A stretch of DNA of 64,000 nt from assembly GCF_001027285.1 (NCBI RefSeq), contig NZ_CP011509.1, forward strand, positions 10,874,501-10,938,500. Reading direction: 5' to 3'. This document shows positions 44,604 to 49,613 of this stretch, one piece after another. Source of the DNA: Archangium gephyra. GTDB lineage: Bacteria; Myxococcota; Myxococcia; Myxococcales; Myxococcaceae. A model generated the notes under the pieces. It was not told the DNA's origin. It saw only the letters and a list, made by a program, of their open reading frames with translations, and did no database searches. The first letter of the stretch is position 1. Every line of letters begins with the position of its first letter. Made by a program: the position numbers and the translations under genes.

Positions 44604-45746
44604 ATGAAGAAGCTGGGATGGATGGCACTGGTTGCGGGTGCGCTGACCTCGGTGGGCTGTGGAACGGAGCCGCTGGAGGAGTCGCGGGCCCGGCCGGTGG
44701 TGGAGCGCTACGCGGCGCTGGTGCATGAGAACTACTCGGACGCGGTGACGAAGGCGCGGGAGCTGCGGGCGACGGTGGATGCCTTCGTGGCGGACCCCAC
44801 CGAGGCAAAGCTGACGTCGGCGCGCGGCGCGTGGCTGGCGGCGCGTCCCGCCTACGGCCAGAGCGAGGCCTTCCGCTTCTACGGCGGCCCCATCGACGAC
44901 GAGGACACGGGCCCCGAGGGCCGCATCAACGCCTGGCCGCTGGACGAGGCGTACATCGACTCGGTGGAGGGCGCGCCCGAGGCCGGCATCATCAACGCCA
45001 CCACCGAGTACCCCACGCTCTCCGAGGAGCTGCTCATCTCCCTCAATGAGCGCGACGGTGAGACGAACATCGCCACCGGCTACCACGCCATCGAGTTCCT
45101 GCTGTGGGGCCAGGATCGGAGCGTGACGGGCCCGGGCAACCGGCCGGCCTCGGACTTCGTGACGGCGCCCAACGCCGCGCGCCGCCGCCAGTACCTGAAG
45201 CTCGCGACGGACCTGCTGGTGAAGGACCTGGAGTCGGTGCAGGCGCAGTGGGCGCCGGGCGCGGACAACTACGGCAAGAAGTTCAGCGCGCAGGAGCCCG
45301 AGGAGGCGGTGCTGCAGGTGCTCACCGGCCTGGGCAGCCTGAGCGGCGCCGAGCTGTCCGGCGAGCGGATGACGGTGGCCTATGACAACAAGGACCAGGA
45401 GGACGAGCACTCCTGCTTCAGCGACAACACGAAGGCGGACCTGTACGCCAACGCGCTCGGCATCCAGAATGTGTACCTGGGGCGCTACGGCACCCAGGAC
45501 GGCAAGGGCCTGGACGAGCTGGTGGCGGCGGTGGACGCGAAGCTGGACACGGAGATGAAGCAGCGCCTGCAGGCCAGCCTGGATGCCATCCAGGCCATTC
45601 CCGGCCCGTTCGACCAGGCCATCACCGGCGCGGAGAATGCCGAGGGCCGGCAGAAGGTGAAGGCGGCCATCGACGCGCTGAAGGCCCAGACGGACACGCT
45701 CGTCGACGTGGCCACCGCGCTGGGCATCACGCTCAACCTGGAGTGA
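44604..45746 (+). CDS. imelysin-family (M75) periplasmic lipoprotein, first copy
   Basis: A 380-residue lipoprotein (MKKLGWMALVAGALTSVGC, Cys19). The M75 signature GxHxxE is intact: TGYHAIEFLLWGQD, His161 and Glu164. Other family parts are AWLAARPAYGQSEAFRFYG, INAWPLDEAYIDSVEG and LTGLGSLSGAELSGERMTV. The family includes IrpA and the C-terminal domain of EfeO, and is linked to iron uptake across the periplasm; peptidase activity is doubtful. The helical bundle is duplicated in such proteins. It is the first gene of a four-gene unit, with nine bases before the di-heme gene. Confidence 0.93.
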   Translation: MKKLGWMALVAGALTSVGCGTEPLEESRARPVVERYAALVHENYSDAVTKARELRATVDAFVADPTEAKLTSARGAWLAARPAYGQSEAFRFYGGPIDDEDTGPEGRINAWPLDEAYIDSVEGAPEAGIINATTEYPTLSEELLISLNERDGETNIATGYHAIEFLLWGQDRSVTGPGNRPASDFVTAPNAARRRQYLKLATDLLVKDLESVQAQWAPGADNYGKKFSAQEPEEAVLQVLTGLGSLSGAELSGERMTVAYDNKDQEDEHSCFSDNTKADLYANALGIQNVYLGRYGTQDGKGLDELVAAVDAKLDTEMKQRLQASLDAIQAIPGPFDQAITGAENAEGRQKVKAAIDALKAQTDTLVDVATALGITLNLE

Positions 45747-45755
45747 GAACGAATC

Positions 45756-47126: not shown

Positions 47127-48199
47127 GCCCCATCCTGCGCCGTCTGATTGCCCCCACCCTCATGCTGTCGCTCGCCGTGGCGAGCTGCGGCGATTCCCAG
47201 GGCACGGCCCTGCGCTCGGCCTTCCTGAAGGAGCTGGCCGGGGACGTGGCCCTCCCGGCGTACCGGGACTTCGACACGCGCACCGAGGCGCTGGCCGGAG
47301 CGCTCGCGGCGCTGGAGGCCACGCCCACGGAGACCACGCTCACGCAGGCGCGGTCCGCCTGGAGGGAGGCACGTGCGGCGTGGCTGCGGCAGGAGGCCTT
47401 CCGCTTCGGTCCGGCGGAGGAGCAGCACACCTCGGCCGCGGTGAACCAGGTGCCGTCCACCACGGGCATCGACAGCCTGCTCGCGGGGGACGTGGAGCTC
47501 ACGGAGACCTTCGTCGCGGAGCAGGGAGCGAACCGCAAGGGACTGCTCGCCATCGAGTACCTGCTCTTCGACGCGGCGGCCACGGAGGAAGGGAGCGCGG
47601 GCGCGCGGCGCCGGGCCTACCTGAAGGCGCTCGGGGCACTGCTGCACAAGGACGCCACGGCGGTGAGCACCGTGTGGGAGCCCGAGCAGGGCAACTACGT
47701 CGCGCAGCTCTCCAACGCGGGGAACGAGGGAAGCCCCTACACCACGCAGAAGGAGGCGGTGGACACGGTGGTCAACCGGCTCATCGCGAGCGTGGAGGTG
47801 GCGGAGCAGAAGCTGTCCAAGCCGCTTGGCTTCGAGACGGGAGGCACGGTGCGTCCCGAGCTGGAGGAGGCGCGGCGCAGCGACAACTCGCTGGCGGACC
47901 TGGGGAACGCGGTGCTCGGCATGGAGCGCGTCTGGCTGGGGGCGAACGGGAACGGCGGGCTGTCAAAGGTGGTGGCCGCGAGCAACAAGCAGGTGGACGC
48001 GACGGTGCGCGGGGACCTGGCGGCGGTGCGCTCGGCGCTGGAGGCCATTCCGCCCCCGCTGCGCACGGCGCTGACCAACGACCGTGAGTCGGTGGAGAGT
48101 GCGCGAGCGGCCCTGTCGACCCTGCGGACCACACTGGCCTCGGAGGTCGTGTCCAACCTGGGCGTGACGCTCAAGTTCAACGACAACGATGGCGACTGA
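47123..48199 (+). CDS. imelysin-family lipoprotein, second copy, with altered metal motif
   Basis: A 358-residue lipoprotein. The GTG start at 47123 overlaps the DHOR stop (GTGA). Signal: (V/M)SPILRRLIAPTLMLSLAV followed by ASC. The fold signatures match the first copy (SAWREARAAWLRQEAFRFG, LGNAVLGMERVWLG), but where the first copy has GYHAIEFLLWG this one has GLLAIEYLLFDAA. The His of GxHxxE is therefore missing while the Glu is kept. The pair probably form a complex in which one member binds metal and the other does not. Imelysin pairs flanking a DHOR gene are known from other bacteria. Confidence 0.9.
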   Translation: MSPILRRLIAPTLMLSLAVASCGDSQGTALRSAFLKELAGDVALPAYRDFDTRTEALAGALAALEATPTETTLTQARSAWREARAAWLRQEAFRFGPAEEQHTSAAVNQVPSTTGIDSLLAGDVELTETFVAEQGANRKGLLAIEYLLFDAAATEEGSAGARRRAYLKALGALLHKDATAVSTVWEPEQGNYVAQLSNAGNEGSPYTTQKEAVDTVVNRLIASVEVAEQKLSKPLGFETGGTVRPELEEARRSDNSLADLGNAVLGMERVWLGANGNGGLSKVVAASNKQVDATVRGDLAAVRSALEAIPPPLRTALTNDRESVESARAALSTLRTTLASEVVSNLGVTLKFNDNDGD

Positions 48200-49613
48200 G
48201 CCCAGTCCTCTCACGCCAGTCACTCCCCTCGCCCTCCGGGAGAGGGGCGGGGGTGAGGGTGTCACGGGCCCCGGGTTCCCCCTGCGAACCCTCCACGAGC
48301 GGCTCACGGCCTCCGCTTTCGCCCCCGTGGACCCGGCCTCGCTGGTGGCGTACCGGGTCGTCTTCGGGCTGCTGATGGGGGTCGCCGTCGCGCGCTTCTT
48401 CGCGTACGGATGGATCCACGAGCACTACCTGGCGCCCAGGGTGCTGTTCCCGTACGCGGGGCTGGAGTGGATCCGACCGTGGCCGGGCGTGGGCATGTAC
48501 GTCCACTTCGCGCTGATGGGGCTGGGAGCGCTGGGCATCACCCTGGGAATCGCATACCGGGCGAGCGCGCTCACGTTCGTGCTCACCTTCACGTACGCGC
48601 ACCTCATCGACAAGACGTACTACCTCAACCACTACTACTTCATCTCGCTGGCCGGGGTGCTGATGGCAGCGCTCCCGTTGGACATGAAGGGGCGGAGCCA
48701 CGTGCCCGCGTGGTGGCTGTGGCTGCTGCGAGCGCAGGTGGGGCTCGTGTACTTCTTCGGCGGGGTGGCGAAGCTGAAGAGCGACTGGCTCGTCCACGCA
48801 CAGCCGATGAAAATCTGGCTCGCGGCGAGCACGGACCTGCCGGTGCTCGGCCGGCTCTTCGAGCAACCCTGGGCGCCGCACGCCTTCAGCGTTGCTGGAG
48901 CGGTGTTCGACCTATGCGTGGTGCCCGCGCTGCTGTGGAAGCGGACGCGGTGGCTCGCCTACGCGGCCGTGGTGGGCTTCCACATCATCACGCGGATGCT
49001 CTTCCCCATTGGCATGTTTCCATGGCTGATGATGGCGGGGGCTCTGCTCTTCTTCCCACCGGACTGGCCCCGGCGGCTCGCGAGCTGGTTGCGACGCGCG
49101 CCGGTGAAGGACTCCGCACCTGAGCCATCCCCCGTCTCGCCCTCGAGCCGCTCCTGGCTCGGACCCGTGTTGGCGGTGGCCTTCCTCGGGGTGCAGCTCT
49201 TCCTGCCACTGCGGCACCTGCTCTACCCGGGTGACGTGATGTGGACGGAGGAGGGCTTCCGCTTCTCGTGGAACGTGATGCTGATGGAGAAGAACGGGGT
49301 GGCCGAGTTCCACGTGAGCGAGCCCGCCACGGGGAAGCGCTGGGTGGTGTCCCCGGGCCAGCACCTCTCGCCCTACCAGGTGAAGATGATGGCCACGCAG
49401 CCGGACATGCTGCTGACGTTCGCGCACTACCTCGCGCGCCACTTCGCCGAGCAGGGGCACCCGGGCGTCGAGGTGCGCGTGGACGCCTTCGCGAGCCTCA
49501 ATGGCCGGCCCCGCCAGCGGCTCGTGGACCCGAGCGTGAACCTGGCCGCGGTGGGACCGTGGGACAGCGTGCACGGATGGGTGCTGCCCTTCCGCGAGGT
49601 GGCGCCTCCCTGA
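48189..49613 (+). CDS. vitamin-K-dependent gamma-carboxylase-like (HTTM) membrane protein
   Basis: A 474-residue integral membrane protein. Helices lie in the first 300 residues (VVFGLLMGVAVARFFAYGWI, MYVHFALMGLGALGITLGIA, YYFISLAGVLMAALPL). KTYYLNHYYFISL (His148) and VYFFGGVAKLKSDWL (Lys195) align by eye with the His160 and Lys218 regions of human gamma-glutamyl carboxylase (NNHSYL and GVKKLDADW, recalled from memory). The extracytoplasmic C-terminal part (about 315-474) contains RFSWNVMLMEKNGVAEFHV, the family's HTTM-adjacent beta domain. The start (ATG 48189) overlaps the imelysin by 11 bases, and codons 13-24 come from a REP-like repeat. Gla formation in bacteria is unproven; the homologue in Leptospira is thought to retain only part of the reaction. 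Confidence 0.88.
   Translation: MATEPSPLTPVTPLALRERGGGEGVTGPGFPLRTLHERLTASAFAPVDPASLVAYRVVFGLLMGVAVARFFAYGWIHEHYLAPRVLFPYAGLEWIRPWPGVGMYVHFALMGLGALGITLGIAYRASALTFVLTFTYAHLIDKTYYLNHYYFISLAGVLMAALPLDMKGRSHVPAWWLWLLRAQVGLVYFFGGVAKLKSDWLVHAQPMKIWLAASTDLPVLGRLFEQPWAPHAFSVAGAVFDLCVVPALLWKRTRWLAYAAVVGFHIITRMLFPIGMFPWLMMAGALLFFPPDWPRRLASWLRRAPVKDSAPEPSPVSPSSRSWLGPVLAVAFLGVQLFLPLRHLLYPGDVMWTEEGFRFSWNVMLMEKNGVAEFHVSEPATGKRWVVSPGQHLSPYQVKMMATQPDMLLTFAHYLARHFAEQGHPGVEVRVDAFASLNGRPRQRLVDPSVNLAAVGPWDSVHGWVLPFREVAPP
48225..48260. repeat. REP-like palindrome copy within the 5' end of the carboxylase-like gene
   Basis: cccctcgccctccgggagag is followed by a gggcgggggtgagggt-type tail, the same orientation as the array at 30061. 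It lies 26 bases after the imelysin stop and 36 bases into the carboxylase-like gene. If translation starts at ATG 48189, the only good start, the repeat is translated as PLALRERGGGEG. Confidence 0.92.

Follow-up and report, generated by a model that had tools for sequence, protein, structure and literature searches.

A vitamin K-dependent carboxylase homolog paired with a His-less imelysin in a predicted iron-regulated operon of Archangium gephyra points to a possible unrecognized protein modification in bacterial metal uptake

The myxobacterium Archangium gephyra encodes a bacterial relative of GGCX, the human vitamin K enzyme that activates blood-clotting proteins, in a four-gene unit together with two imelysins and a di-heme oxidoreductase (DHOR). 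The unit occupies positions 44604-49613 on the forward strand of the 64,000-nucleotide stretch analyzed here (the window; NZ_CP011509.1, 10,874,501 to 10,938,500). Across related loci, the constant partner of this vitamin K-dependent gamma-carboxylase homolog (VKGC) is one imelysin lacking the His of its family motif, usually accompanied by a TonB receptor and a DUF4856 protein. This conserved partnership, found in several bacterial phyla in operons with reported or predicted iron control, points to an unrecognized protein modification in bacterial metal uptake. We propose an iron-regulated module of cell-envelope lipoproteins for metal uptake that has its own GGCX-family carboxylase, menaquinol-dependent and with a full set of catalytic residues, a reading whose probability we put just short of even.

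The genes follow in the order imelysin 1 (44604..45746), DHOR (45756..47126), imelysin 2 (47123..48199), and VKGC homolog (48189..49613), all on the plus strand, with 9 bp between the first two genes, a 4-bp overlap between the second and third, and an 11-bp overlap between the third and fourth; imelysin 2 starts at a GTG at 47123 that overlaps the DHOR stop. Imelysin 1 (PF09375, Peptidase_M75, 1.3e-82) carries GYHAIE at amino acid 159, the GxHxxE motif of the ICMP/LruB family, whereas imelysin 2 (PF09375, 3.6e-52) reads GLLAIE, the GxxxxE form of the IPPA/PA4372 family, in which loss of the His is an already described feature (Xu et al. 2011, PMC3143127). The DHOR belongs to DUF1111 both by family profile (PF06537, 3.2e-104) and by its two CxxCH heme motifs (amino acids 89 and 338). 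Lipobox-like signals can be read in imelysin 1 (TSVGC), the DHOR (LLAC), and imelysin 2 (AVASC). The gene set with its tight spacing, the three lipoprotein-type signals, and the retention of His in the first imelysin only are all as an initial annotation of this DNA had described them; it had not recorded the full lumenal domain of the VKGC, the DNDGD tail of imelysin 2, the Fur-like box at 44533-44551, or the conserved VKGC-imelysin pairing. The whole genome (12.49 Mb, one contig) contains only these two imelysins and this single VKGC.

Among the 80 closest VKGC loci, collected with a VKGC profile from Myxococcota, Bacteroidota, Balneolota, Rhodothermota, and Chloroflexota, the VKGC has an imelysin no more than 4 kb away in 78, almost always as the adjacent gene, and in the 76 loci of this set the partner is the His-less type throughout. 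Because this first set was selected for similarity, we also analyzed an unselected set of 195 Myxococcota genomes with 88 VKGC places, 69 of which have an imelysin within 4 kb, on the same strand every time. At the genome level, imelysins occur in 69 of the 72 Myxococcota genomes with a VKGC versus 22 of the 123 others, a comparison that ignores kinship. In a phylogenetic tree the imelysin-paired VKGCs cluster in one part, and the lone unpaired sequence there (L153) begins at a contig end. The order imelysin-DHOR-imelysin-VKGC is found in Archangium, Nannocystis, and others; Bacteroidota and Balneolota loci read DUF4856-imelysin-VKGC-TonB receptor, some Myxococcota have imelysin-DUF4856-VKGC-receptor, and the VKGC of the Chloroflexota loci is convergent. 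Overall, a TonB receptor is present in about 65 of the 80 loci and DUF4856 in 64. Since gene orders differ while the imelysin stays, we regard the DHOR linkage as one variant and the imelysin as the constant partner. The conserved neighborhood expected in the initial annotation is therefore upheld for the imelysin pairing across phyla, but not for the DHOR and the two imelysins, which are not general partners.

Proteobacterial plasmid loci related to the unit but without VKGC, where examined, have the order imelysin-DHOR-imelysin followed by DUF1513, so that the VKGC occupies the place of DUF1513; on three Azospirillum plasmids (L120, L193, and L194) a multicopper oxidase gene lies within this imelysin-DHOR-imelysin-DUF1513 operon. 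Most Bacteroidota partner imelysins (L065 and others) have also exchanged the motif's Glu, once part of GxHxxE, for Asp (GFAALDYLL). DUF4856 (L065:7493-8722 and its alignment) has invariant EHxxDE and HxLxE motifs that resemble a metal site, and its model is confident (pLDDT 91) with no significant match in the PDB. The idea that DUF4856 is a hidden imelysin was rejected, as neither HMM-HMM nor fold comparison supports it. VKOR was likewise discarded as a specific partner: VKOR-like domains occur in 64 of the 72 VKGC genomes and 79 of the 123 others and, being widespread with and without VKGC, are weakly informative.

The VKGC homolog (474 amino acids) combines the HTTM domain (PF05090, 4.3e-75; amino acids 44-293) and the lumenal domain (PF22777, VKGC_lumenal_dom, 7.7e-48; amino acids 327-469) in one protein, both far over the Pfam cut-off, and phmmer matches it to human GGCX in the PDB over residues 38-468 (E 9.2e-45). 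Its AlphaFold2 model (pLDDT 89, pTM 0.86) has significant structure matches to GGCX only (best E near 1e-23; TM 0.79, with TMq reaching 0.80), among them GGCX with its substrates. With GGCX residue roles taken from PMC12589487, the catalytic base Lys218 maps to K195 (codon 48771..48773), His160 of the Glu/quinol pocket to H148 (codon 48630..48632), and Asn159 to N147. In GGCX numbering, the quinol pocket F286/F294/F299/W223/V210 is retained together with Y211, W399, and R476, and M401 and Y425 are both Val. All 81 aligned relatives have K218, H160, N159, Y211, W223, F286, F294, F299, and W399 without exception; in 35 further VKGCs, K218, H160, and N159 are again invariant, with a few losses at the remaining positions. 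The counterparts of His160 and Lys218 that the initial annotation had picked out by eye are thus borne out as His148 and Lys195, and the alignment with GGCX reveals no loss of the catalytic His or Lys. Judged by its residues, the VKGC active site is complete.

A Fur-box-like site, TTGACTTTGATTCTCAGTT (44533..44551, plus strand), lies upstream of the operon and is kept before the same operon in relatives. Near-consensus Fur boxes precede it in more distant relatives as well (TTGAGAATCATTCTCATTC in L186 and TGAAAACGACTTTCAATAT in L045), and no Fur-like site was found upstream of the Chloroflexota loci. Across the 12.5-Mb genome, the pattern TGANNNTGATTNTCA has only three occurrences: one precedes this operon, another a gene for an FTR1-family permease, and the third a TonB/PepSY/receptor cluster that adjoins a PKHD-type hydroxylase gene. 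In Riemerella anatipestifer, iron starvation increases expression of the receptor, the VKGC, the imelysin, and a fourth gene, all listed as Fur regulated (PMC5609570), and in Leptospira both imelysins encoded in the LruB operon are responsive to iron limitation (PMC7567364). We predict from the sequence that the A. gephyra operon is under Fur-type iron control; the link to iron or metals suggested in the initial annotation is strengthened by this rare site, which otherwise stands only before iron-uptake genes in this genome, and by the published regulation of the Riemerella orthologs. The genome also encodes menB (over its cut-off), which indicates the classical menaquinone route and agrees with the assumption that the organism makes menaquinone; the futalosine route (PF02621) was not found in this genome. 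At L237:2572-4455, where the same Fur-like motif precedes the gene, an FTR1-family permease carries a fused cytochrome c domain.

Taken together, we hypothesize that iron limitation would derepress the operon, as the Fur-like site and the Riemerella data suggest, and that the imelysins and the di-heme enzyme would be exported as lipoproteins that bind or handle iron, with the latter performing redox chemistry, in keeping with known family roles. The VKGC, in the inner membrane with its active site facing the periplasm, would consume menaquinol, O2, and CO2 if its chemistry follows that of GGCX, with Lys195 deprotonating the quinol and His148 and Asn147 holding an acidic side chain. One or more acidic residues would be carboxylated in a protein of the module, with the adjoining His-less imelysin as the most likely substrate, to yield a stronger metal-binding or docking site, and the flexible acidic C-terminal tail of this imelysin would be the prime candidate for the part that is recognized or modified. 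We consider it likely that a protein of the operon would be carboxylated. More specifically, a GGCX-family enzyme may use menaquinol in several phyla to carboxylate acidic residues of the His-less imelysin (to gamma-carboxyglutamate [Gla] or beta-carboxyaspartate), probably in or near the tail, and so build or tune a metal site for iron uptake; in this specific form we hold the proposal only tentatively and find it rather doubtful.

The tail of imelysin 2 reads DNDGD (codons 48182..48196, plus strand). In the first set, 75 of the 76 VKGC-paired imelysins end in D-G-D (four carry one or three extra residues) and 74 of these 75 have Asp at -5, giving D-x-D-G-D; the 76th, L062, is a frameshift-broken imelysin with a DTDGDSMR end still encoded. 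The DUF1513-type loci have xxDGD tails with Asp at -5 in 0 of 12 (one with an unannotated neighbor). Myxococcus-type loci have a second tail type, GDND, with Asn at -2 in all examined paired loci save two with Thr; among VKGC-less genomes of this class, three of four have Ser or Ala at -2, and in the imelysin tree these Ser/Ala tails fall on two or more distinct branches. The tail is disordered in the crystal of a homolog (3pf0). This pattern is suggestive of contact between the tail and the VKGC. Gene overlap was rejected as the source of tail conservation, as the Bacteroidota genes are mostly nonoverlapping, unlike those of the window.

Several observations weigh against carboxylation of the imelysin in the manner of GGCX. 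Similar acidic tails are present in loci and genomes without VKGC, one of which (G111) keeps GDND with Asn at -2; these tails rule out DxDGD/GDND as a strict mark of VKGC, though the exact residues differ. A good part of the tail contrast also tracks phylogeny, and most of the paired myxobacterial imelysin sequences are near relatives. The alignment of paired imelysins contains no Glu column that is both near-invariant and specific to pairing; this makes a conserved Gla site of the vertebrate kind in the imelysin less likely. Asp, the conserved tail residue, is a poor substrate for GGCX. Two loci, L085 and L073, have a VKGC and no detectable imelysin. Within the VKGC, Y395 is replaced by Phe; this position is Tyr or Phe in nearly all of the window's clade, Met in the clade with GDND tails, and mostly His in VKGCs without imelysin linkage. 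K217 is Ala here and in nearly all aligned VKGCs, a substitution that in GGCX impairs substrate binding but not catalysis (PMC12589487). Homology to GGCX stops at about residue 505; the remainder of the propeptide-binding region is absent, as is the Arch, so that substrate recognition must differ from that of GGCX. We see the exosite and Arch as a vertebrate feature, not one of the family; their incompleteness weakens a claim of vertebrate-type recognition and leaves the claim of chemistry in place.

The lack of a conserved substrate Glu in the imelysins and the partly missing propeptide exosite would suit a VKGC that acts as a quinol epoxidase or oxidase without protein carboxylation, its menaquinol-O2 superbase serving some other reaction within the iron-uptake module, with a small molecule, lipids, or iron chelates as the target. 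A VKGC relative from Leptospira reportedly epoxidizes vitamin K without carboxylating protein; it is, however, said to be without Lys218, which is invariant in the relatives of the window's VKGC. The Glu-pocket residues N159 and H160 are also invariant, and nearly all of the clade has Tyr or Phe at 395, and we judge such an enzyme to be unlikely, if a serious candidate. Alternatively, the VKGC may carboxylate another protein of the module (the TonB receptor, DUF4856, or the DHOR) or one encoded elsewhere, with the imelysin merely a co-worker. The frequency of the TonB receptor and DUF4856 among the 80 loci would agree with this, as would three Myxococcota loci that place DUF4856 between imelysin and VKGC and a Roseivirga locus (L085) with DUF4856-VKGC and no imelysin detected. 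DHOR-type loci such as that of the window, however, have neither DUF4856 nor a receptor next to the VKGC, and the imelysin is the sole constant neighbor, which makes a different substrate an unlikely solution. We know of no measured activity for this VKGC clade, and the fold could serve as a membrane anchor or scaffold with no enzymatic role in the module, but the invariance of the catalytic base, Glu pocket, and quinol pocket over several phyla would be unexpected for a scaffold, and we regard this as quite improbable. Adjacency by chance or operon hopping with no functional link could draw on the 19 of 88 Myxococcota VKGC places without a nearby imelysin (some at contig edges), but it is negligible given the probability of about 7e-4 that a lone VKGC in this genome would fall so close to an imelysin, and given that the pairing recurs in many genomes across several phyla in differing gene orders.

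Several further features were observed around the unit and its relatives. Additional myxobacterial VKGC paralogs unlinked to imelysin (L145, L149, L150, L144, L146, and L148) keep K218 and H160, but their position 395 is His or Phe and their position 402 is Lys. The VKGC of L149 is preceded by a small lipoprotein-like open reading frame and followed by one resembling a spermidine-synthase fusion. Solitary VKGCs with the catalytic Lys and His and no imelysin near are found on plasmids of Paracoccus albus (L116) and Bernardetia (L117). An extra DHOR gene stands directly before imelysin 1 in G090:C32, G091:C1, and G092:C1, and G093:C1 is similar. In the window, a subtilase gene with C-terminal Ig-like domains (41993-44485, minus strand) is divergent from the operon, and a palindromic repeat, CTCACCCC..CCCTCTCCCGGAGGGCGAGGG (7 matches versus 0 expected), recurs at 48211-48260, 49651-49691, 51796-51826, 30055-30155, and 30844-30874. 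What looks like a diverged copy of this repeat sits within the 5' end of the VKGC gene, where it encodes a low-confidence stretch, TPLALRERGGGEG, that is absent in the relatives L008, L018, and L022.

If carboxylation proves true, it would constitute a new bacterial protein modification tying respiratory quinones and O2 to metal acquisition and, if true for the imelysin, a bacterial vitamin K-dependent protein modification predating blood clotting. Bacterial VKGCs would gain a physiological setting, iron uptake, and a named candidate substrate, which bears on the origin of vitamin K-dependent carboxylation and on the working of the imelysins, a family without a settled function. The imelysin-DHOR-imelysin arrangement is already known, and the VKGC partnership appears undescribed: in a literature search that left most subscription journals outside, no paper joined imelysin and HTTM, which is weak evidence, and imelysin and vitamin K carboxylase terms came together only in the Riemerella paper (PMC5609570).

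The closest known system in Pseudomonas aeruginosa, PA4370-PA4373, comprises a Fur-regulated imelysin (GxHxxE), a DUF1111 protein, and an imelysin (GxxxxE) (Xu et al. 2011, PMC3143127); the triad is common to both, whereas no VKGC is described for the Pseudomonas operon. Leptospira has a bacterial VKGC, reported to lack Lys218 and carboxylase activity. It also has an operon of the order imelysin-DHOR-imelysin, in which iron limitation induces the imelysins (PMC7567364). The R. anatipestifer locus RAYM_09779-09794 has a TonB receptor, VKGC, imelysin, and hypothetical protein under iron/Fur regulation but is of the Bacteroidota type, and the passages of PMC5609570 consulted here list the genes without discussing a partnership. 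Compared with human GGCX, the A. gephyra VKGC is alike in its fold, in Lys218, His160, and Asn159, and in its quinol pocket; it differs in the changes of K217 to A, Y395 to F, and R436 to M, in ending at about residue 505 of GGCX, and in its place within a predicted iron-regulated bacterial operon.

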